From contig OZ037769.1 of NCBI GenBank assembly GCA_964035545.1, positions 180,001-217,500 of the forward strand: a stretch of DNA of 37,500 nucleotides. The letters are read 5' to 3'. The position numbers were made by a program, and so were the translations under genes. Below the pieces are notes generated by a model that did not search any database, was not told where the DNA came from, and saw nothing but the letters and a program-made list of their open reading frames with translations. This stretch comes from Bugula neritina. Taxonomy: Eukaryota > Bryozoa > Gymnolaemata > Cheilostomatida > Bugulidae. Below, one piece after another: positions 8,336 through 34,900 of the stretch (positions are counted from its first letter, which is position 1; every line of letters begins with the position of its first letter).

Positions 8336-11300
8336 TCGAGTAGAGATTTCCTGCAGAGTCTAGCCACTAGTCCCGAGAGCTGAAGAAGGGAGCCCAGGCC
8401 GTCTAGGATCCTCATCTGAGTGTATCCTATCTCCTGCAAGAGAGAGCAAGTTGACGTCAGAGCTGGATGTAAGAGGATTTGAGGATAGCCTCAGAGTCAT
8501 TAAACTAAACAACAGGTGAGGGCCAATAGTGAGGACACAGGCTAAGGATTACAAGATTACTGGAGAGATTATATAATTACTACTTCCTGTTAATTTCCTG
8601 GTAGAAGTTATTAGAGTTGATGACATCTATACAGTATATCTCTATACATCTATACAGTATATCTCTATATACATCTACACAGTATATCTCTATACATCTA
8701 TACAGTATATCTCTATACATCTACACAGTATATCTCTATATACATCTACACAGTATATCTCTATACATCTACACAGTATATCTCTATACATCTATACAGT
8801 ATATCTCTATACATCTACACAGTATATCTCTATACATCTACACAGTATATCTCTATACATCTATACAGTATATCTCTATACATCTATACAGTATATCTCT
8901 ATACATCCACACAGTATATCTCTATACATATATACAGTATATCTCTATACACCTATACAGTATATCTCTATACATCTATACAGTATATCTCTATACAGTA
9001 TATCTCTATACATCTACACAGTATATCTCTATACATCTATACTGTATATCTCTATACATCTATACAGTATATCTCTATACATCTATACTGTATATCTCTA
9101 TACATCTACACAGTATATCTCTATACATCTATACAGTATATCTCTATACATCTATACAGCATATCTCTATACATATATACAGTATATCTCTATACATATA
9201 TACAGTATATCTCTATACATATATACAGTACACTACACTGCACACTACACTATATATTATTATACTGAGTACTATACTGAGTACTATACTGAGTAATACA
9301 CTGTACAACACACTGTAAGCTGTAACCAACAATGTACATAAACCCCGTCCAATAGAGAGCCAGCTCAAGGAAATAGGAAGTGGATGGCCCTGGGAAAACG
9401 AGAAGGAATTCCTGTTGAGGGTAGCTGAGTGATGGTTTGACCAATAGGAATAGAGTTAGTAACCTAGAGACAGACAGTGGAGAGACAGACAGACAGACAA
9501 GGTGCCAACCTTGATGAACTCCAGTTTGAGATATTCGGCCATTTTGTGAGTCTTAGTAATGCGGAAGATGATACCAATGATATCCTCGGCAGCATACCCA
9601 CAGTTCCAGAGTTTGCTGACGATGACAAAGGCCTTGTCAAAGTCCCTGGCGACGCAGTAGTCTAGCATGTCCTTGACCAGCAGGGGGTGTGGCTCGTCAC
9701 ACACTTTGAACACGTTGTCTGTCGTAACTTTACCGAATCCCTGGGAGGTTGACTGGAGGTTATTCAGACCCTGAAATACACGTCACCTTCTGGTATATAG
9801 TATATACTATACTATATACTACACTATACTATACTACTAGTATACTAGGGTGGGACTGAAGAACATAGCCTGAGCACCAACCTGTCTCATGTCGCCCTCT
9901 GCAGTGAAAATGATGGCTTCCATGCCGGCGTCGTCAAACTCCACGTCTTCCGCCTCGCAGACAGCCAGCAGTCTGTCCAGCAGCTCGGCATCCGTTAGCT
10001 TTGTGTAACGCAACATGGCGCACCTCGACTGTATCGGCTCTACATAGTATAATAGCTCTACAGTATAATACCTCCATAGTATACACTGAGCTCTATAGTA
10101 TACACTGAGCTCTACAGTATACACTGAGTTCTACAGTATACACTGAGTTCTACAGTATACACTGAGCTCTATAGTATACACTGAGCTCTACAGTATACAC
10201 TGAGCTCTACAGTATACACTGAGCTCTACAGTATACACTGAGCTCTACAGTATACACTGAGCTCTATAGTATACACTGAGCTCTCCAGTATACACTGAGC
10301 TCTACAGTATACACTGAGCTCTACAGTATACACTGAGTTCTACAGTATACACTGAGTTCTACAGTATACACTGAGTTCTACATAATATAATAGCTCTACA
10401 GTATACACTGAGCTCTATAGTATACACTGAGCTCTACAGTATACACTGAGCTCTACAGTATACACTGAGTTCTACAGTATACACTGAGTTCTACAGTATA
10501 CACTGAGTTCTACATAATATAATAGCTCTACAGTATACACTGAGCTCTATAGTATACACTGAGCTCTAACAGTATACACTGAGTTCTACAGTATACACTG
10601 AGCTCTACAGTATACACTGAGCTCTAACAGAACGTACCGATGATTTTCTCTGAGGAGTTGCAGGCGAGGGCAAACCTCGTCGTCTTGGAGTAGAGCTCCA
10701 TGATACGACGCAACGCTTGCTGTGCTGACTCCGTCATGCTGTCTGCCTCGTCTAGTATCACCATCTTGTGTCTGCCGGGAGGCAGTGTGACCTTCTTCTG
10801 AGCGAACGTCTTAATTCTGTTCCTCACAGCGTCTATACCCCTAGCATAGTACAATATATCCACCCCTAGTATAGTATATCCACCCCTAGTATAGTATAGT
10901 ATATCCACCCCTAGTATAGTACAATATATCCACCCCTAGTATAGTATAGTATATCCACCCCTAGTATAGTATATCCACCCCTAGTATAGTATAGTATATC
11001 CACCCCTAGTATAGTATAGTATATCCACCCCTAGTATAGTATAGTATATCCACCCCTAGTATAGCATAGTATAGTATAGTATATCCACCCCTAGTATAGT
11101 ATAGTATATCTACCCCTAGTATAGTATAGTATATCCACCCCTAGTATAGCATAGTATATCCACCCCTAGTATAGCATAGTACAATATATCCACCCCTAGT
11201 ATAGTATAGTATATCCACCCCTAGTATAGTATAATATATCCACCCCTAGCATAGTATAGTATATCCACCCCTAATATAGTATAGTATATCCACCCCTAGT

Positions 11301-12821
11301 ATAGTATAATATATCCACCCCTAGTATAATATAGTATAGTATATCCACCCCTAGTATAGTATAGTATAGTATATCCACCCTTGGTATAGTATAATTTATC
11401 ACACTGACCTCTCATTAGACGCATTGAGCTCCAAAACAGCCTCGGATATTGCGTCACCCAATAGACTGCGTGCTAGACATAAAATGCTGGTAGTCTTTCC
11501 GGTGCCTGGAGGGCCCTAAATAAGTTCACACTGTCTAATATTTGTTTACCTTCAGCACCAAAGCACACCTCTTCAGTACAAGTGGATACTATCCGTTCAT
11601 TCAATACTCTACACATTAGCGAAGACAACTCCAAATTGGACATGCTATGCTTTCCTTTAAACTAGCGTCAAGAATGCTAGCAAAGCAATAGTAACCACAC
11701 AGCAATACAAATCTCAGTAATCAAGTGAGTAAAACTATGAGTTAAAATCATCCAGTGTTTGATACTCACAGCTATGACAATATTTGGCACATTTCCACTC
11801 TTGGCAAATACCGCCAATCTCTGCACCGTACTTTCATTTCCAACAATGTCTTCCATTTTTAAAGGTCTATACTTCTCAACCCTTCAACACAAATGAAAAT
11901 AACGGAATTGATACAAGTTATTGCAGAAGCATTTATAATGGCGTTGATTACAGAGTCCCATAATAGTTACGGACAACCTACACCATAAACGAGACAACTC
12001 CGAATTTAATTATTTAGCATGCCCTTGATAACCACAATGAACCATTTGGACATCAGGTACAGCATAAAACCTATTGCACATTGCATAATAATTAATAAAT
12101 ACGAACTGTTGTAATTATTTTATGCAAAATTTCAGTCATCAATTGCTGTTTCAACTTTGTGATCAGAATAATAGTCTAAAGACTGCAATACTTCTGTAGC
12201 TCACAGCTGAGTAACATAACAGTAACTGTGAGTGCAAGACTCAGTGTGAGTGTAACTCACTCTTACTAAGAGTAAGATCGCCATGCTGATGATAAATTTG
12301 TTAATAAGTTATTATCACCTAACGTTGATGATTATGACAAGCATTCTTATTTCTTATCAAATGACACATGGTAATGGATATAGCAAATGCAATAGAATAG
12401 GCACCGGGTAAAAATACTAACTGTGAAATTCAAATTGAATATGAATATCAAATTAAATATGAAATATTAAATTTAATAATATTAATAATAATATGAAATT
12501 GAATTAGAATAGCAATATAAATATTAAATCATATATGCATATGGGAATAGCCAACAAAAAGTGAATATATAAAATTCAATATGAAAATTAAAATATGTAT
12601 TTCATTTTTAACTTTTACCTAAAACTTGAGTATTGTGATTATCAATATGATTATCGAATTCAATATGAATATCATTATGACTATCATTAACAATAAGTGA
12701 ATAACTGATTAAGATTATGATTATCATCAACTTTAGGTTTAAAACTAACAGTAACTCTAACAGAAACTTACCAGGGCTGGTCGCGTTTTGACTTTGCATC
12801 TTTAGATTTTTCTTGATCCAT
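8332..12821 (-). CDS. RFC2: Replication factor C subunit 2 (clamp-loader AAA+ ATPase)
   Basis: Seven minus-strand exons join in phase: 12821-12772, 11881-11770, 11515-11409, 10840-10638, 10039-9882, 9770-9510 and 8433-8332, giving 330 aa (human about 354). RFC2 is one of the small subunits of the RFC complex that loads PCNA on primed DNA. Visible landmarks are PWVEKYRP at the N-terminus, Walker A GPPGTGKT (55-62), Walker B ILDEAD (118-123), the arginine-finger motif SRC (162-164), [35 protein letters not shown] and [11 protein letters not shown]. The last two exons are nearly colinear with human RFC2. The N-terminal extension is shorter than in vertebrates. Introns 3, 4 and 6 are expanded by tandem arrays; intron 5 is 111 bp. 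All motifs are intact. Confidence 0.95.
8626..9235. repeat. 23-bp tandem array in RFC2 intron 6
   Basis: About 26 copies of a 23-bp unit made of ATCTATACAG and TATATCTCTATAC, with C/T changes and one truncated copy. A 233-aa plus-strand open frame crosses it, but that frame only reflects a repeat with no stop in any phase. Confidence 0.9.
10042..10632. repeat. 19-bp tandem array in RFC2 intron 4
   Basis: About 30 copies, on the gene strand, of AGCTCAGTGTATACTGTAG, with a few interrupted copies. The array fills almost all of the intron. The unit boundary TGTAG|AGC equals the bases at the real acceptor, TATGTAG|AGCCGATA, so every unit resembles a 3' splice site. Confidence 0.9.
10841..11395. 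repeat. Variable 20-30-bp tandem array in RFC2 intron 3
   Basis: More than 20 copies of GGGTGGATATACTATACTAG-like units on the gene strand, differing in the number of TATAC steps. The real acceptor reads ATGCTAG|GGGTATAG, and each unit reads ATACTAG|GGGTGGAT, so the array repeats an acceptor-like junction. Confidence 0.9.
11882..12771. other. RFC2 intron 1, AT-rich
   Basis: Near 12420-12760 there is simple AT-rich sequence with many ATTAAAT and AATATGAA-type motifs. No exon, RNA gene or mobile element is recognised inside. Confidence 0.5.
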
Positions 12822-13806: not shown

Positions 13807-16800
13807 TTAGTTAGTTATGCTGTGGCTTCCTGATAGGCTGATTTTAAGCTCTGCCGTTGCTGATTGGTCGACTTTGTCAACACTGTTAGCTGATTGGCTG
13901 AGTGAAGGAATACTCGGACTGAGTGACACATTGATCTGCCTTGAAGACAGAGTAGGAGGAAGTTCAGTTGGGCGTCTGTTACCTAAAATAGTGTACCAAA
14001 GCAATACCATAACTATATTATATACTGTAGTGTACCACAGCAATACCATAACTATATTATATACTGTAGTGTACCAAAGCAATACCATAACTATATTATA
14101 TACTGTAGTGTACCAAAGCAATACCATAACTATATTATATACTGTAGTGTACCACAGCAATACCATAACTATATTATATACTGTAGTGTACCACAGCAAT
14201 ACCATAACTATATTATATACTGTAGTGTACCACAGCAATACCATAACTATATTATATACTGTAGTGTACCACAGCAATACCATAACTATATTATATACTG
14301 TAGTGTACCAAAGCAATACCATAACTATATTATATACTGTAGTGTACCACAGCAATACCATAACTATATTATATACTGTAGTGTACCACAGCAATACCAT
14401 AACTATATTATATACTGTAGTGTACCACAGCAATACCATAACTATATTATATACTGTAGTGTACCACAGCAATACCATAACTATATTATATACTGTAGTA
14501 AACTGTAATAATACTGCTGCTACATACAAGTGTTACTATGACAATACTCCTACTGCATACAGGTGTTGCTATGGCAATACCGGTGCTACATACAAGTGTA
14601 CTATGACAATACCGGTGCTATAGGAGACTGCTAGGTTGCCGCTGTCAGACACGAGAGAACCAAAGAGTGGTCTCATGCTGGTGGCGTCATCCCGCAGGTG
14701 CAGTTCATCTGTGGAGGTGCTATCAGAATGCACGCTGACTGTATCCTGTGTCATGTTGCTGCCAATAACCATATTACAATTTTACTGTATTATATTACAA
14801 TATTACTGTATTATATTACTATATTATATTACCGTATTACCATATTATATTACCATATTACTATATTATATTACCGTATTACCATATTATATTACCATAT
14901 TACTATATTATATTACCGTATTACCATATTATATTACCATATTACTGTACTATATTACCATATTAGTGTATTATATTAGTGTATTATATTACTGTATTAC
15001 TGCATTATATTACTGTATGGAGCAGTCGTAACATTAAACTCACCTGCCTGTCGTAACTTTGCTTTGAGCTCTAGTGAGGCGACCAATCACAGCCTGCATC
15101 TCTTTGTTATTTGTTTTCATTTTCATCCTTCAAGTAAAGCAGAAGTCTGTGTTACACAGTAGAAGAAGCACGCTAAAAGACACACAGACAGACAGTGAGA
15201 GACACATAGACAGACTAAAAGACAGACAGACAGACTTACAAGTCATTTTGTAACTCTAGTATAACACTCTGTAGTTGTTCCACCTCCTTCTCATGATTCA
15301 CTTCCAAATTAACTCTTTCTGCAGATAACCGCCTATTCTCCTCCTGGTGTGACGCAATCTCTAGTTGTGTCTTCTTCAACATCTGCTCCAGATATCCCTG
15401 AGATATACGTAACCATGCTTACTATGACTCACCTTGTCAAGGTGACATAGGCTATGTCAAGGTGACACGGGCTATGTCAAGGTAACACGGACTATGTCAA
15501 GGTTACACGAGCTATGTCAAGGTTACACGGACTATGTCAAGGTTACACGAGCTATGTCAAGGTGACATGAGCTATGTCAAGGTGACACAGGCTATGTCAA
15601 GGTTACACGAGCTATGTCAAGGTGACACGAGCTATGTCAAGGTGACACACACACCTTTTGCTCACTAGTCGTCCTGAAGGCTCGCTGCAGAGACGCCAGC
15701 CTCTCTTTGAGATTACTATCAGCTATGACTGTGAGAGAGGTCTTCTGATTGGTCATTGAGTGCATTTGCTGGTCAGTGTGTGGGGAATGTGTGGGTGTAG
15801 AGGTACTTGATAGGTCCTGCTTCTCTTGGAGATCATTTTCTATTCCTTCAACACTGCAAATAGAGTAACTGTATGTTATACACTTACCTTAGAGTAGCTG
15901 TATGTTATACACTTACCTTAGAGTAGCTGTATGTCATACACTTAGCTTAGAGTAACTGTATGTTATACACTTACCTTAGAGTAGCTGTATGTTATACACT
16001 TACCTTAGAGTAGCTGTATGTTATACACTTACCTTAGAGTAGCTGTATGTTATACACTTACCTTAGAGTAGCTGTATGTTATACACTTACCTTAGAGTAG
16101 CTGTATGTTATACACTTACCTTAGATACAGTAACTGTATGTTATACACTTACCAGTGTTCAAACTTCAGATAAGGTGAATAGTCAACAAGAATTCGGCCT
16201 TCCAGACTATTATTTTTATTTTTCAAACAGAAACTACAAGAAACAAACAGAAACTACAAGAAACAAACAGAAACTACAAGAAACAAACAGAAACTACAAG
16301 AAACAAACAGAAACTACAAGAAACAAACAGAAACTACAAGAAACAAACAGAAACTACAAGAAACAAACAGAAACTACAAGAAACAAACAGAAACTACAAG
16401 AAATAAAGAGAAACCACAGATGACCAACAAAGTACAGTTTTCAGCAGTTGCATGTGATGCACCTCTAAAATAGATGACAACTCCTAGCCATTTTGAAACA
16501 ATAAAGAAAATTGTTGAATATATGATGTATCATATATGAAAGCTTACTTAAAGTCTATGGCTTCCAGTCCAATAATATCAGCTATGAGCAGTTGCATTTC
16601 CTCACTGCACACGATAGCACCGTCGTGGTAGTATTTACTGTGGATTAATACAAACACATGTGGTGAAATGATAGGAATTACACTTTTTGTATTGTATGGT
16701 ATGATGTATGTGTGCACAGTGTATGGTGTATGTGTGCACAGTGTATGGTGTATGTGTGCACAGTGTATAGTGTATGTGTGCACAGTGTATAGTGTATGTG

Positions 16801-25478: not shown

Positions 25479-28400
25479 ATGGCTGCTGATATGGATGTGG
25501 ATACGTTTATGAGACGGGGATTTGACTCACTGGACAGCGATGACAATGTACCTCCTCAGACTAAGGCATCTGCAACAAAGAAGAAAGGAAAAACAAAGAA
25601 GAGTCAAGGTCAAAAGCGCAGAGAAAAGCTCAAATCGCAAGGCATGTTGGATACCAGGGCTAGGGTTTCATCCAAAACTGCAGCCGAAAAGCATGGGGCA
25701 GAAGACGGCGCAGAAGATGGGGCAGAAAATGCAACTAAAAAGTAACTTGAGTTTGCAGCAGTTTCACTCAAATGTCAATAAATGTATTTTGTCTGATGTG
25801 CCTGGACATTTGTCTACTACCATATGGTATAGTTTGTATACAGCAAATTATATGTCAGTGTTTGTATACAGCAAATCATATGTCAGTGTTTGTATACAGC
25901 AAACCATATGTCAGTGTTTGTATACAGCAAATCATATGTCAGTGTTTGTATACAGCAAATCATATGTCAGTGTTTGTATACAGCAAATCATATGTCAGTG
26001 TTTGTATACAGCAAATCATATGTCAGTGTTTGTATACAGCAAATTATATGTCAGTGTTTGTTGCTTAGAAAGTCAGGTGTGAGTAAGCACAAAGCTGTGA
26101 TTGGATCGCTGGCAGCCAATGATCCTGAGTTTTACAAGTTCCTTCAAGAAGAAGACAAAAATCTTCTAAACTTTGATGACTCATCAGATGAAGAGGAACT
26201 GCACAGGTTGCCTAGCAACCTCGTAGAGCAGAAGGTCAGTTAACATGACACCCCTGACACCTTGTGTTTACTCTATCTAAATACAATAATAAGTGCTGGA
26301 CCCTCTGATGTTGAACTGTTCAGGTGAGTGAGTCACATTTTATTAAAGGAAAAAGTGAAGAAGCGGAAACTGGAAGACAGCGACAGCGATATGACATCAG
26401 AAAGTGACTCAGGTGACAGGCAAGTGGCAGCAGGTGACTCAAGTGATGACATGGATGACTCAGACACAGACTCTGAGCAGGTGTCTGCAGGTGCCCCTAC
26501 TAAAATACCTGACAGTAGAGGAAGAGCACCAACTCTCCATGTCACCAAGACCATGGTTGACAGGTGGTGCAGGCAACTGGAGAAAAGACCTAGAATTGAG
26601 GTGCTACTAACTAGACTCTGTTCTACTAACTAGACTCTGTTCTACTAACTAGACTCTGTTCTACTAACTAGACTCTGTTCTACTAACTAGACTCTGTTCT
26701 ACTAACTAGACTCTGTTCTACTAACTAGACTCTGTTCTACTAACTAGACTCTGTTCTACTAACTAGACTCTGTTCTACTACCAGGTGGCTGACGGTCTGA
26801 TAAAGGCGCTGCAAGGAGCCGTCTCCGAGGCTGCAGGAGGATCTCAGGACGTGGCGACTGCCTACAGAGTAGAGGGGGTCGTTAGTGAGTCTGTCTGTCC
26901 GTCTGTCTGCCCGTCTGTGTGTTTGTCTGTCTGTCTGTGTGTTATATAGTAGTTAGTAGCAGGTCATATGCAGTGTGTGTGTTGCAGCTTTCAATGCCGT
27001 TATAAGGTCATGCCTCAAAAACTTCCCTCAAACATTCGCTGCTCTGCTCAACTACAGCCCCAAGATGATGGATCTTCCCTCCAAGTGTAAGAGATGGGGG
27101 GAAATGAAGGTGTCAGTGCGACTCTATCTCTCAGCTCTTCTGCAGGTGTAATATACCATAATATACTGTAATATACTATAATATACTGTATTATACTATA
27201 ATATACTGTATTATACTATAATATACTGTAATATACTGTAATATACTGTAATATACTATAATATACTGTATTATACTATAATATACTGTATTATACTATA
27301 ATATACTGTATTATACTATAATATACTGTATTATACTATAATATACTGTAATATACTATAATATACTGTAATATACTATAATATACTGTGATATACTGTA
27401 ATATACTGTGATATACTGTAATATACTGTAATACACTATAATATACTGTAATATACTGTAATATACTATAATATACTATATTATACTGTAATATACTATA
27501 ATATACTGTAATATACTATAATATACTGTAATATACAGTAATATACTGTAATATACAGTAATATACTATAATATACTGTAATATACTATAATATACTGTA
27601 ATATAATATAATATACTGTAATATACTATAATATACTATAATATAATATGATATACTGTAATATAATATAATATACTATAATATACTGTAATATACTGTA
27701 ATATACAGTAATATACTATAATATACTGTAATATACTATAATATACTGTAATATACTATAATATACTGTAATATACTATAATATACTATAATATACTGTA
27801 ATATACTATAATATACTATAATATACTGTAATATACTATAATATATTGTAATATACTATAATATACAGTAATATACTGTAATATACTATAATATAATGTA
27901 ATATACTATAATATACTGTATTATACTATAATATACTGTAATATACTATAATATACTGTAATATACTATAATATACTATAATATACTGTAATATACTGTA
28001 ATATACTGTAATATAATACAATATACTGTAATATACTATAATATAATATAATATACTGTAATGTATTTCAGCTGCTGAAGAACTTAGCTGCTGCTGACGT
28101 CATCAATGCTGTGTTGAAACACGTGAGTCAGCTGACCAGCTACATCGTGTCTCTCCCCAAACAGACTAGACTCTACATGAAGGTGAGTTGTCCCAGCTCT
28201 TGTCTCGGCTCTTGTCTCAGCTCTTATACTAGCTTTTGTCTCTGGTGCACGGGCTACACAGTACGGGGTTACAGAGTACGTATCTATCTTTTAGATTCTC
28301 ATAGGAATCTGGGCTAAGGGGGAGGAGACGTCCCGAGTTCTCTCCTTCCTCTGTATCCTCAGGCTAATCAGACTGAAACAGAGTGACCTGCTGGAGAAGA

Positions 28401-31400
28401 CGTTGAAGGTAAGTGTAATATAGTAAGTATAGTAAGTATAGTATAGTAAGTATAGTATAGTAAGTATAGTATAGTAAGTATAGTATAGTAAGTATAATAT
28501 ATAGTAAGTATAATATAGTAAGTATAATGTAGTAAGTATAATATAGTAAGTATAATATAGTAAGTATAGTATAGTAAGTATAATATAGTAAGTATAGTAT
28601 AATAAGTATAGTATAGTAAGTATATTATACTTACTATATTATACTATACTTACTATACTATACTATAGTATAGTATAGTAATAATATAGTAAGTATAATA
28701 TAGTAAGTATAGTATAGTAAGTATAGTATAGTAAGTATAATATAGTAAGTATAGTATAGTAAGTATAGTATAGTAAGTATAGTATAGTAAGTATAGTATA
28801 GTAAGTATAATATAGTAAGTATAATATAGTAAGTATAATATAGTAAGTATAATATAGTAAGTATAGTATAGTAAGTATAGTAAGTATAGTATAGTAAGTA
28901 TAATATTGTAAGTATAATATAGTAAGTATAGTATAATAAGTATAGTATAGTAAGTATAGTATAGTAAGTATAGTATAATGAGTATAGTATAGTAAGTATA
29001 ATGTAGTAAGTATAATATAGTAAGTATAGTATAGTGAGTATAATATAGTAAGTATAGTATAGTAAGTATAATATAGTAAGTATAGTATAGTAAGTATAGT
29101 ATAGTGAGTATAATATAGTAAGTATAGTATAGTAAGTATAATATAGTATAGTAAGTATAGTATAGTAAGTATAGTATAGTGAGTATAATATAGTAAGTAT
29201 AATATAGTAAGCGTAATATAGTAAGTATAGTATAGTAAGTATAGTATAGTAAGTATAATATAGTAAGTATAATATAGTAAGTATAATATAGTAAGTATAA
29301 TATAGTAAGTATAATATAGTAAGTATAGTATAGTAAGTATAGTAAGTATAGTATAGTATAGTAAGTATAGTATAGTAAGTATAATATAGTAAGTATAATA
29401 TAGTAAGTATAGTATAGTAAGTATAGTATAGTGAGTATAATATAGTAAGTATAGTATAGTAAGTATAATATAGTAAGTATAGTATAGTAAGTATAATATA
29501 GTATAGTAAGTATAGTATAGTAAGTATAGTATAGTGAGTATAATATAGTAAGTATAGTAAGTATAGTATAGTGAGTATAATATAGTAAGTATAATATAGT
29601 AAGTATAGTATAGTAAGTATAGTAAGTATAGTATAGTAAGTATAATATTGTAAGTATAATATAGTAAGTATAGTATAGTAAGTATAATATAGTAAGTATA
29701 ATATAGTAAGTATAATATAGTAAGTATAATGTAGTAAGTATAGTATAGTAAGTATAGTATAGTAAGTATAATATAGTAAGTATAATGTAGTAAGTATAGT
29801 ATAGTAAGTATAGTATAGTAAGTATAATATAGTAAGTATAATGTAGTAAGTATAGTATAGTAAGTATAGTATAATAAGTATAATATTGTAAGTATAATGT
29901 AGTAAGTATAGTATAGTAAGTATAGTATAGTAAGTATAATATAGTAAGTATAATGTAGTAAGTATAGTATAGTAAGTATAGTATAGTAAGTATAATATAG
30001 TAAGTATAATGTAGTAAGTATAGTATAGTAAGTATAGTATAATAAGTATAATATAGTAAGTATAATATAGTAAGTATAGTATAGTAAGTATAGTAAGTAT
30101 AGTATAGTAAGTATAATATAGTAAGTATAGTATAGTAAGTATAGTAAGTATAGTATAGTAAGTATAATATAGTAAGTATAGTATAGTAAGTATAATATAG
30201 TAAGTATAGTATCGTGAGTATAATATAGTAAGTATAATATAGTAAGTATAATGTAGTAAGTATAGTATAGTAAGTATAGTATAGTAAGTATAATATAGTA
30301 AGTATAATGTAGTAAGTATAGTATAGTAAGTATAGTATAGTAAGTATAATATAGTAAGTATAATGTAGTAAGTATAGTATAGTAAGTATAGTATAATAAG
30401 TATAATATTGTAAGTATAATATAGTAAGTATAGTATAGTAAGTATAGTATAGTAAGTATAGTATAGTATAGTGAGTATAATATAGTAAGTATAGTATAGT
30501 AAGTATAGTATAGTGAGTATAATATAGTAAGTATAATATAGTAAGTATAGTATAGTAAGTATAGTAAGTATAGTATAGTAAGTATAATATTGTAAGTATA
30601 ATATAGTAAGTATAGTATAGTAAGTATAATATAGTAAGTATAGTATAGTGAGTATAATATAGTAAGTATAATATAGTAAGTATAATGTAGTAAGTATAGT
30701 ATAGTAAGTATAGTATAGTAAGTATAATATAGTAAGTATAATGTAGTAAGTATAGTATAGTAAGTATAGTATAGTAAGTATAATATAGTAAGTATAATGT
30801 AGTAAGTATAGTATAGTAAGTATAGTATAATAAGTATAATATTGTAAGTATAATATAGTAAGTATAGTATAGTAAGTATAGTATAGTAAGTATAGTATAG
30901 TAAGTATAGTATAGTATAGTATAGTATAGTATAGTAAGTATAATATTGTAAGTATAATATAGTAAGTATAATATAGTAAGTATAATATAGTAAGTATAGT
31001 ATAGTAAGTATAATATTGTAAGTATAATATAGTAAGTATAATATAGTAAGTATAATATAGTAAGTATAGTATAGTAAGTATAATATTGTAAGTATAATAT
31101 AGTAAGTATAGTATAGTAAGTATAGTATAGTAAGTATAGTATAGTATAGTAAGTATAGTATAGTATAGTAAGTGTAATATAGTAAGTATAGTATAGTAAG
31201 TATAGTATAGTATAGTAAGTATAATATAGTAAGTATAATATAGTAAGTATAGTATAGTGAGTATAATATTGTAAGTATAATATAGTAAATATAGTATAGT
31301 AAGTATAATATAGTAAGTATAATATAGTAAGTATAGTATAGTAAGTATAGTATAGTAAGTCTAGTATAGTGAGTATAATATAGTAAGTATAGTATAGTAA

Positions 31401-34400
31401 GTATAATATAGTAAGTATAGTATAGTGAGTATAGTATAGTAAGTATAGTATAGTAAGTATAATATAGTAAGTATAGTATAGTAAGTATAGTATAGTGAGT
31501 ATAATATAGTAAGTATAGTAAGTATAGTATAGTAAGTATAATATAGTAAGTATAGTATAGTGAGTATAGTATAGTAAGTATAGTATAGTAAGTATAATAT
31601 AGTAAGTATAATATAGTAAGTATAGTATAGTAAGTATAGTATAGTATAGTAAGTATAGTATAGTAAGCGTAATATAGTAAGTAAACTTCTCAGTGCTCTT
31701 GTAGGCGATGTACATGACTTACGTACGCAACTGTAAGTTCTCTTCGCCAACTCTGCTTCCCATGATCAGCTTTATGCAGCACTCTCTGGTAGAGATCTTT
31801 GGTCTGGACCGGTTGCTAGGATACCAGTACACATTTGTGTATGTCAGACAGCTGGCTATACACCTGAGGAATGCTATAGCCAGCAAGAAGAAGGTTGGTA
31901 TGTATATCTGTGTGAGTACTGTGTGTATACTGTGTAAGTACTGTGTGAGTACTGTGTAAGTACTGTGTGAGTACTGTGTGAGTACTGTGTGAATACTGTG
32001 TGAGTACTGTGTGAGTACTGGTGTTGAGTACTGGTGTTCTTGTAGGAGGCCCACCAGGCTGTCTACAACTGGCAGTTTATCCACAGCTGTTCTCTCTTCT
32101 CTCGTCTCGTCAGCACTCTCTATTCGGATGAGAATATTCAGCAACTTGTCTTCCCTCTTATACAGATCATCACTGGTGTCATTAGGTAGCAATAATATAA
32201 TATAGTAATATAGTAATATAATATAGTAATATAATATAATAATATAGTGTAGTAATATAATAATATAGTAATATAATATAATAATATAATATAGCAATAC
32301 TTTCATCATGTTTCCAGACTGATCCCCACTACCAGGTTCTATCCTCTCAGGTTTCAGTGTATCAGAATGTTGAACCTAATTTCTTTAGAGACCGGAGTTT
32401 ACATACCTACTCTGTCCTATATACTAGAGGTAAGTACTCTGTACTATATACTAGAGGTAAGTACTCTGTACTATATACTAGAGGTAAGTACTCTGTCCTA
32501 TATACTAGAGGTAAGTACTCTGTCCTATATACTAGAGGTAAGTACTCTGTCCTATATACTAGAGGTAAGTACTCTGTCCTATATACTAGAGGTAAGTACT
32601 CTGTCCTATATACTAGAGGTAAGTACTCTGTCCTATATACTAGAGGTAAGTACTCTGTCCTATATACTAGAGGTAAGTACTCTGTCCTATATACTAGAGG
32701 TAAGTACTCTGTCCTATATACTAGAGGTAAGTACTCTGTCCTATATACTAGAGGTAAGTACTCTGTACTATATACTAGAGGTAAGTACTCTGTCCTATAT
32801 ACTAGAGGTAAGTACTCTGTCCTATATACTAGAGGTAAGTACTCTGTCCTATATACTAGAGGTAAGTACTCTGTCCTATATACTAGAGGTAAGTACTCTG
32901 TCCTATATACTAGAGGTAAGTACTCTGTCCTATATACTAGAGGTAAGTACTCTGTACTATATACTAGAGGTAAGTACTCTGTCCTATATACTAGAGATAA
33001 GTACTCTGTACTATATACTAGAGGTAAGTACTCTGTACTATATACTAGAGGTAAGTACTCTGTACTATGTCATATACTGTTTTGCAGGTCATAGAGACTA
33101 CAGACTTCCAGAAGAAGATTTCCCGAGTCAACACCCGCCCCATTGACTTCTCCTGCATCCTCAAACTCTCCAAGACTCAGACTCACGACCGAGCCTTCAA
33201 AGATGGAGTCATGGACCAGCTGTACGAGCTCGCACTGGACCATCTCTCCGCCTACTCTCACACCATCTCCTTTCCTGAAGTCGTCTCTCAACCTCTCCAT
33301 CAGGTATTCTACTCAACCTCTTCATCAGGTATTCTACTCAACCTCTTCATCAGGTATTCTACTCAACCTCTCCATCAGGTATTCTACTCAACCTCTCCAT
33401 CAGGTATTCTACTCAACCTCTCCATCAGGTATTGTATAGTACTGTACTGTATTGTATTGTATTATACTGTATTGTATGATACTGCACTGCACTGTATTGT
33501 ACTGTATTGTACTGTACTGTATTGTATTGTATTGTACTGCACTGTATTGTACTGTATTGTATTATACTGCACTGCACTCTAATATATCAAATCTCTCTGC
33601 AGATGAAGCAGTTTGTCAAGACGTGTAAAGTAGCCAACTTCACTAAACTCTTCAAGCAAGTCATCAGCAAGATTGACGAAACTACTCGGGTTATTCAGTG
33701 CAGACGGCGTGGCTCTGCAATAGATTTGTCTTCTCCTGACTATGTGGTAAATAGTTGTCTTCTCATTATGTATATATAAGTAGTTGTCTTCTCATTATGT
33801 ATATATAAGTAGTTGTCTCCTCATTATGTATATATAAGTAGTTGTCTTCTCATTATGTATATATAAGTAGTTGTCTCCTTATTATGTGTATATAAGTAGT
33901 TGTCTCCTCATTATGTGTATATAAGTAGTTGTCTCCTCATTATGTATATTTAAGTAGTTGTCTCCTCCTTATGTATATATAAGTAGTTGTCTCCTCATTA
34001 TGTATATATAAGTAGTTGTCTTCTCATTATGTATATATAAGTAGTTGTCTCCTCCTTATGTATATTTAAGTAGTTGTCTCCTCTATTTTACCAGAGAAAC
34101 TGGGAGACTGCAAGTAGACTGGAAGGCACGCCTCTCACAACGTACTACAAACAGTATAGAGTTCTGCGTGACAGAGAGGTGCAGATGCAGATTTCCGGCA
34201 AGGAGCAGGTAACTCCTAGTATAATATAGCCTACTTGTAGTAACTCCTCTGGGTCGGAACTCTCTTTGCTAGTTGGTAGGAAAGTTGTTCTCAGTTTATT
34301 AGATTCATTCATGTTTCGTGCAGATGGAGTCGTATGATAAAACTCCCATCATACCGACTGGACAGCGCCGTGCTACCGAATCAGAAAGGAAGGAGTTCTC

Positions 34401-34900
34401 CTCTCTGTTTGACAGCAGCCAATCAGAAGACAGCAGTGATGATGACGAGGAAAGGTAAGTGATGCTGTGTTGAAGCTGTGTTGAAGCTGCATGTACTGTG
34501 TGTTGTGTATATTTCTAGCCGTGGCCGTGTAGTCTAGCCTCTGTATGCTGCAATGAGCCGTTATTTTAGTAAATATAAATATTTCAACAAACGTTTTAGA
34601 TTCAAACCGAAGAGTGAAAGAAAGCAGAAGGCAAGAGTTGCAGCAGATGATTCTAGTGATGATGATGTGAGCTCATTAAACAGTGAGGAATACGCCATGT
34701 TGGATAGAGATGTGTCAGATGAGGAAGGGGCGGAGTCAGGCGAGGAAGGGGCGGAGTCAGACGAGGAAGGGGCGGAGTCAGGCGAGGAAAGGGCGGAGTC
34801 AGGCGAGGAAGGGGCGGAGTCAGATGGTAGTGACATAGACATGGTCACTGCTGAAGATGTCGTTGAAGACTTGGAATTATCTGATCTGGATGACTGTTAG
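25479..34900 (+). CDS. NOC2L: Nucleolar complex protein 2 homologue (NOC2L)
   Basis: Fifteen exons join in phase: 25479-25741, 26069-26234, 26349-26600, 26785-26884, 26988-27145, 28072-28182, 28295-28408, 31705-31893, 32046-32185, 32318-32429, 33088-33303, 33603-33746, 34095-34208, 34324-34454 and 34600-34900, giving 836 aa (human 749). Noc2 partners Noc1/Noc3 to export pre-60S ribosomal particles from nucleolus to nucleoplasm. Human NOC2L also acts as a histone acetyltransferase inhibitor. Landmarks: [113 protein letters not shown]. Acidic runs lie near residues 155-195 and at the C-terminus. Start: the ATG before AADMDVD matches the family; an upstream in-frame ATG at 25425 is possible. Nine of fourteen introns hold arrays. 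Confidence 0.95.
25838..26060. repeat. 28-bp array in NOC2L intron 1
   Basis: Eight copies of a 28-bp unit containing TTTGTATACAG and CAAATCATATGTCAG, with C/T changes. TGTATACAG and TGTCAG give each copy acceptor-like AGs. The last copy ends just before the true acceptor TTGCTTAG at 26068. Confidence 0.9.
26601..26784 (+). repeat. 19-bp branch-point-like array in NOC2L intron 3
   Basis: Nine copies of CTACTAACTAGACTCTGTT occupy the whole 184-bp intron. Each contains TACTAAC, the classic optimal branch-point sequence, and an AG five bases on. The true acceptor is a modified final copy, TGTTCTACTACCAG. Confidence 0.9.
27146..28065. repeat. 10-bp ATATACTRTA array in NOC2L intron 5
   Basis: About 90 copies of ATATACTGTA / ATATACTATA fill the 926-bp intron from the donor (CTGCAG|GTGTAATATAC) to the acceptor (TATTTCAG). 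The units are near-palindromic, so the intron could fold into long AT-rich hairpins. Confidence 0.9.
28409..31690 (+). repeat. 3.3-kb 14-bp donor-consensus array in NOC2L intron 7
   Basis: Over 200 copies (by length, about 230) of GTAAGTATAGTATA / GTAAGTATAATATA run from the true donor GAAG|GTAAGTG to just before the acceptor CTTGTAG at 31704. A local inversion lies near 28628-28665, where the complement TACTTACTATA appears. The unit holds GTAAGTAT, the perfect intronic complement of the U1 snRNA 5' end. A 1020-aa minus-strand open frame across it is an artefact. Confidence 0.95.
31905..32040 (+). repeat. 11-bp donor-like array in NOC2L intron 8
   Basis: About eleven copies of GTGTGAGTACT or GTGTAAGTACT. 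Each includes GTGAGTACT or GTAAGTACT, both strong donor sequences. The real donor, AAG|GTTGGT, is weaker than these copies. Confidence 0.85.
32188..32295. repeat. AT-rich array in NOC2L intron 9
   Basis: Mixed AATATAATATAGT units fill most of the 132-bp intron. Confidence 0.8.
32406..33066 (+). repeat. 27-bp exon-intron junction array in NOC2L intron 10
   Basis: About 24 copies of TACTCTGTCCTATATACTAG + AGGTAAG. The first copy lies in exon 10 and encodes the conserved end (LSYILE), then the donor. All later copies repeat exon end plus GTAAG. Because 27 is a multiple of three, the exon frame stays open through the array as VSTLSYILE nonapeptides. Confidence 0.95.
33287..33430 (+). repeat. 25-bp exon-intron junction array in NOC2L intron 11
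   Basis: Six copies of CAACCTCTCCATCAG|GTATTCTACT. The first is the end of exon 11 (QPLHQ) with its donor. C/T differences separate some copies. Confidence 0.95.
33430..33575. repeat. GTATT/GTACT simple repeat in NOC2L intron 11
   Basis: Tandem GTATT, GTACT and GCACT pentamers follow the 25-bp array and may have arisen from the GTATT at its donor. Confidence 0.8.
33726..34085 (+). repeat. 29-bp exon-intron junction-derived array in NOC2L intron 12
   Basis: About twelve 29-bp units beginning TTGTCTTCTC or TTGTCTCCTC and ending ATAAGTAG. Exon 12 plus donor reads TTGTCTTCTCCTGACTATGT, then GGTAAATAG, which is also 29 bp, so the array appears to descend from a duplication across the junction, with later divergence. 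Confidence 0.85.
34725..34828 (+). repeat. Coding 21-bp repeat in the NOC2L acidic tail
   Basis: Five in-frame copies of GCGGAGTCAGGCGAGGAAGG + G encode EEGAES(G/D) heptapeptides in the last exon, lengthening the acidic C-terminus compared with human NOC2L. One copy has E-R in place of E-G. Confidence 0.9.

Follow-up and report, generated by a model that had tools for sequence, protein, structure and literature searches.

A tandemly repeated exon–intron boundary in intron 10 of the NOC2L gene of the bryozoan Bugula neritina

Intron 10 of the Bugula neritina NOC2L gene is almost entirely a tandem array, the 27-bp unit of which consists of the end of exon 10 together with the start of its 5' splice site. 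Arrays of the same anatomy recur at other loci, and the NOC2L protein read from the first donor is collinear with its homologues. Very likely, this is a mirage-type minisatellite of the exon–intron boundary (mirages being tandem repeats that span such boundaries in amphioxus) and is spliced from its outermost donor. The window referred to below is the whole stretch of 37,500 nucleotides analysed here, positions 180,001–217,500 of contig OZ037769.1 in an assembly of 215.8 Mb, and a slash in a sequence marks a splice junction.

Anatomy of the intron 10 array

The gene had been named as NOC2L from its sequence, and this was confirmed: the product of our gene model (Table 1) matches the Pfam family Noc2 (PF03715) with E = 9.2e-104 and a solved NOC2L chain (8fkv_NA) with E = 4e-147. 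The best of 120 listed among 705 homologues is that of Watersipora subatra, a cheilostome bryozoan, with 71% identity. A partial model of RFC2 lies on the minus strand at 9510–11876, and here too the top identity among the 120 homologues listed belongs to W. subatra (86%); a record labelled Malus baccata outranks it by E-value, with 65% identity over 87% of the query. The NOC2L and RFC2 homologues of W. subatra are both on contigs sized 77133738, so that linkage of the two genes, as seen here, probably holds in that species too.

The original prediction placed about 24 copies of the unit in intron 10, and TRF agrees closely, giving a period of 27 bp and 24.5 copies with 98% matches and zero indels over 661 bp. 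The span first proposed, 32406–33087, ends correctly at the acceptor AG, but the array begins at 32408 rather than at 32406. The composition of the unit, the last 22 bases of exon 10 (32408–32429) followed by GTAAG, is exact, and the base preceding these 22 already differs. Donor positions fall at 32430 + 27n, and 23 of the 24, the authentic donor among them, read GAGGTAAGTA (GAG/GTAAGTA), where the sixth intronic base, T, is contributed by the following copy as its first exonic base. Thus, not quite every copy is a complete donor as had been supposed: in copy 22, at 32997, the donor is broken and reads GAGATAAGTA. Apart from this, the sole variation among full copies is TCC or TAC at one codon. 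The length of the intron would depend on the donor used, being 658 bp from donor 1, 118 bp from donor 21, 64 bp from donor 23 and 37 bp from donor 24. Long near-perfect arrays are prone to assembly errors, but this one occupies just 661 bp in a 17.7-Mb contig, carries distinct variants among its copies and has counterparts with different units and the same anatomy at other loci; that it is an assembly artefact is barely conceivable.

We searched 18 introns (14 of NOC2L, 4 of RFC2) for further copies of their own junctions, using a word of 15 bases from −10 to +5 and allowing at most two mismatches. The donor word has 23 further copies downstream in intron 10 (broken copy counted) and 5 in intron 11, and is repeated in none of the other 16 introns, a distribution far beyond chance. 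The acceptor word is repeated in none of the 18. This bears on whether intron 10 owes its own origin to an exonic AGGT segment that became tandemly duplicated, as in the model of Rogers named in the available text of PMC3087553. The repeat unit is indeed exonic sequence with AG/GT, but the pure form of the model has both ends of the intron as copies of one exonic segment, and neither the acceptor, the word for which has no copy in intron 10, nor the start of exon 11 is a copy of the unit. Such an origin is exceedingly unlikely.

Table 1 Positions of the NOC2L features in the window
Feature	Position	Strand	Details
NOC2L gene model	25479..34900	+	15 coding exons, 14 GT-AG introns, 836 aa; built by hand and script
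Intron 7, 14-bp array ×233	28409..31704	+	219 sense GTRAGT hexamers; unit without exon bases
Exon 10	32318..32429	+	112 bp; final 22 bases form the exonic portion of the unit
Intron 10, 27-bp tandem array ×24.5	32408..33068	+	Unit TACTCTGTCCTATATACTAGAG/GTAAG; 23 intact donors, one broken (32997)
Intron 10	32430..33087	+	658 bp from donor 1; array covers 97%
Non-repeated 3' end of intron 10	33069..33087	+	Acceptor TTTTGCAG
Second boundary array, 25 bp ×5.9	33287..33433	+	Last 17 bases of exon 11 and donor (CATCAG/GTATTCTA), 5 further copies
Intron 12 array, 29 bp ×12.3	33726..34083	+	TRF start 21 bases inside exon 12

Recurrence and genomic setting of the arrays

The adjoining intron 11 carries the second boundary array. 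In intron 12, an 87-bp TRF row begins at 33748, past the donor, and the array fails the strict junction test; it is therefore only a possible third case in NOC2L. Elsewhere in the genome, the same anatomy is found in POLR3D (locus L006; RPC4 Pfam match, E = 7.8e-20), where the exon end ATACTGAAG/GTAAGTACTGT is repeated with a period of 20 bp in 69.3 copies, with 61 exact donor words in an intron of 1383 bp; L006 overlaps L008 and L010, and the three were counted as one locus. It was picked by its similarity to the intron 10 array and so is not an unbiased draw, whereas L016, one of 20 random stretches, is. In L016 the exon end CACGCCTCTCTCG/GTGAGT heads a series of four donors spaced 24, 24 and 22 bp apart. 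The best PDB match of this exon is to HSP70 chains (E = 1e-4), but it has no HSP70 Pfam match and only a sub-threshold match to Taxilin, which makes an HSP70-like name tentative.

Tandem arrays are found in most introns of NOC2L. TRF arrays overlap 12 of the 14, one of them being a 4-bp repeat; in 11 of the 12 the array starts at most 19 bp past the donor, and in none does it invade the downstream exon. Intron 3 holds a 19-bp array (26604–26780, 9.3 copies, 100% matches) with nine copies of TACTAAC, the classic branch-point sequence. A 21-bp repeat of 5.2 copies also occurs in the acidic coding end of the gene, at 34714–34823 (EEGAESG).

On the minus strand, the RFC2 array at 10837–11368 has a unit with CTAG/GGGT, like the authentic acceptor of the exon that follows, plus a few exon bases. 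It is negative in the strict 15-base test, and the acceptor may be duplicated here as well. The view that the arrays are confined to donors was rejected, given this acceptor in the RFC2 unit and the presence of both kinds in amphioxus. Two further minus-strand arrays were noted: one at 15861–16153 (29 bp ×10), which has AGGTAAGTG in every consensus unit and starts at a donor-like site, and one in L002 at 1493–1873 (25 bp ×15.2), consisting of AGAGGTAAGTACACTGTGTATAAGT and having no evident preceding coding exon.

Intron 7 (3.3 kb) is almost entirely a 14-bp array, and the GC skew within it is 0.94–0.99 at 28501–31500. Sense GTRAGT hexamers outnumber antisense ones by 219 to 2 in this intron, 23 to 0 in intron 10 and 8 to 0 in intron 8, with 0 in the reversed control for all three. 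Binding of U1 can shield long AT-rich introns against premature polyadenylation, or adjust splicing, and the sense excess would be expected if donor-rich introns had been selected as U1-binding platforms or decoys to these ends. Most arrays, however, are without a donor hexamer. Among arrays with periods of 10–60, at least 3 copies and at least 80% match, and leaving out two satellite stretches, it is present in 4 of 30 in the window (0 when reversed) and in 2 of 10 in the random stretches (1 when reversed), one of these two being an AAGT simple repeat; a general enrichment of the hexamer in array units is accordingly weak. Seeding at the donor accounts for the sense bias, and selection is not required. 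We consider the selected platform very doubtful.

Arrays of period 8 or more occupy 34% of the window compared with 5659 of 170,000 bases (3.3%) in 17 random stretches, from which two consisting almost wholly of satellite and one reading N are excluded; all 20 give 12.5%. Of 36 separate genomic places matching the intron 10 array, 19 are no more than 1 Mb from the end of a contig, against an expectation of 8.6%. This count covers the best candidates, with matches up to 20 kb apart merged and with the window's own place and five C8 matches left out. The matches were picked by similarity to the array, and the result indicates that sequences of this kind, rather than arrays at large, cluster near the ends of contigs.

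Reading frame and choice of donor

The original prediction saw in the array a meaningful latent insertion of variable length. Its observational basis stands, that is, the junction identity, the donor context and a frame that, as claimed, meets no stop over the array, being open from 32295 to 33143; the step to a meaningful insertion is weakened by several results. The boundary arrays have periods of 27, 25, 29 (uncertain), 20 and 24 bp, so that two of the five are multiples of three; in the arrays of 25 and 20 bp and in the possible one of 29 bp, most later donors would cause a frameshift. For hypothetical junction-spanning units of 18–33 bp on the 14 NOC2L donors, 293 of 1120 (26%) are in frame and open; of the 420 with a length that is a multiple of three, the same 293 are open. 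Selection for an in-frame unit was thus set aside as unnecessary, and the capacity of the intron 10 array for in-frame insertion is most likely due to chance.

In an alignment of eight NOC2 homologues, chosen from the 120 listed, no protein carries inserted residues where exons 10/11, 11/12 and 12/13 meet, and nothing separates ILE from the VIETTDF of the next exon. The conserved product is therefore that of donor 1. The amphioxus precedent described below likewise speaks against a meaningful insertion. An alternative is a splice ladder, in which several donors, or dual-specific AG/GT copies, are used stochastically to add n × 9 residues (VSTLSYILE). The open frame and period of 27, the 23 equal donors, each at full strength, and the AGGT core of dual-specific sites in each intact copy are in favour of such a ladder, and human UBC, in the available text of PMC10809524, does splice through a tandem array of dual-specific sites. 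The homologues lack the insertion in 8 of 8 cases, however, an open in-frame unit is expected by chance in ~26%, intron 11 and POLR3D show the same anatomy with periods that break the frame, and splicing from donor 23 or 24 would produce introns well below 103 bp, the smallest in the gene model. We regard the ladder as unlikely. Its broader form, that stochastic use of the 23 donors yields NOC2L lengths in 9-residue steps over a range set by allele copy number, and that boundary arrays genome-wide are a standing source of variation, we think decidedly unlikely.

For the boundary minisatellite that we favour, the following course of events may be proposed. A segment astride the 5' splice site of intron 10, comprising the 22 exon bases and GTAAG, would have been tandemly duplicated, and the array would then have expanded, its homogeneity being kept through slippage or unequal exchange. 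Copy 1 would be the real exon end and copies 2–24 would lie within the intron, the spliceosome most likely joining donor 1 (32429/32430) to the acceptor at 33087 and leaving the protein unchanged. A duplication astride the 5' splice site spares the first donor and the exon, and if the outermost donor is chosen, each new copy should be intronic and nearly neutral; the array could have grown because it was close to neutral.

Judged from the sequence, only the first of the 23 identical donors is probably used. Both the donors and the bases preceding them are alike, TCC/TAC aside, and local sequence cannot explain the choice among them. The outermost donor is likely to be picked either via exon definition across the 112-bp exon or by recognition once the first donor has been transcribed. 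Masking of the later donors by RNA structure was rejected, as three folds of the RNA did not improve on those of shuffled sequences (z = 0.31, 1.45 and 0.04). According to the available text of PMC5585400, SRSF1 favours intron-proximal and hnRNP A1 intron-distal donors; by analogy, trans-acting factors could push the choice in intron 10 either way.

Comparison with known systems

In the portions of the literature available, boundary minisatellites named mirages are found solely in amphioxus, with related repeats in human duplicated genes (PMC2812944), and among the matches listed in the open-licence literature we found no report of boundary arrays in bryozoans. The NOC2L case places mirage-type boundary minisatellites in another phylum. 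It is also a natural test of how the spliceosome chooses among 23 identical donors with common upstream exon sequence, and in the adjoining introns, with units of 27 and 25 (perhaps also 29) bp, in-frame and out-of-frame ladders can be compared within a single gene.

As far as the accessible parts of PMC3087553 and PMC3902484 describe them, both citing Canestro et al. 2002, amphioxus mirages occur in Adh3, BflGb6, BflGb9, TnC and PGBD5, duplication may affect 5' as well as 3' boundaries, copy number varies among haplotypes, and the results suggest that regular splicing is undisturbed; one annotation of PGBD5 treats part of such repeats as exon (PMC3902484). The anatomy is the same in NOC2L, known here from the sequence of one assembly: the tandem unit spans the exon–intron boundary, and the copies retain splice signals at 23 of 24 donor positions. 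The differences are that the host is a bryozoan and not a chordate, that copies are more numerous (BflGb6 has 6 and 3, NOC2L 24 and POLR3D ~69), and that the NOC2L unit is shorter than the 150–160 bp of the globin mirages, in so far as those texts give these values.

Two human systems are also related. In UBC, tandem dual-specific AG/GT sites yield a stochastic ladder of isoforms with varying ubiquitin numbers, and the dual-specific arrays of UBC and VCX3A resemble that of NOC2L in consisting of tandem copies of an AG/GT splice element (PMC10809524, available text). There, however, the unit belongs to the coding sequence, the intron spans a whole number of units and the element doubles as acceptor, whereas the 658 bp of intron 10 are not divisible by 27 and its acceptor (33080–33087) lies outside the array and is not a copy of the unit. 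Human genes in segmental duplications have variable internal tandem repeats at exon–intron boundaries, and there, as in NOC2L, minisatellite expansion at a boundary can alter gene structure; most of these cases, in the part of PMC2812944 available, also have transcripts with the repeat in an exon, whereas the collinear protein of NOC2L argues for a repeat that is intronic.
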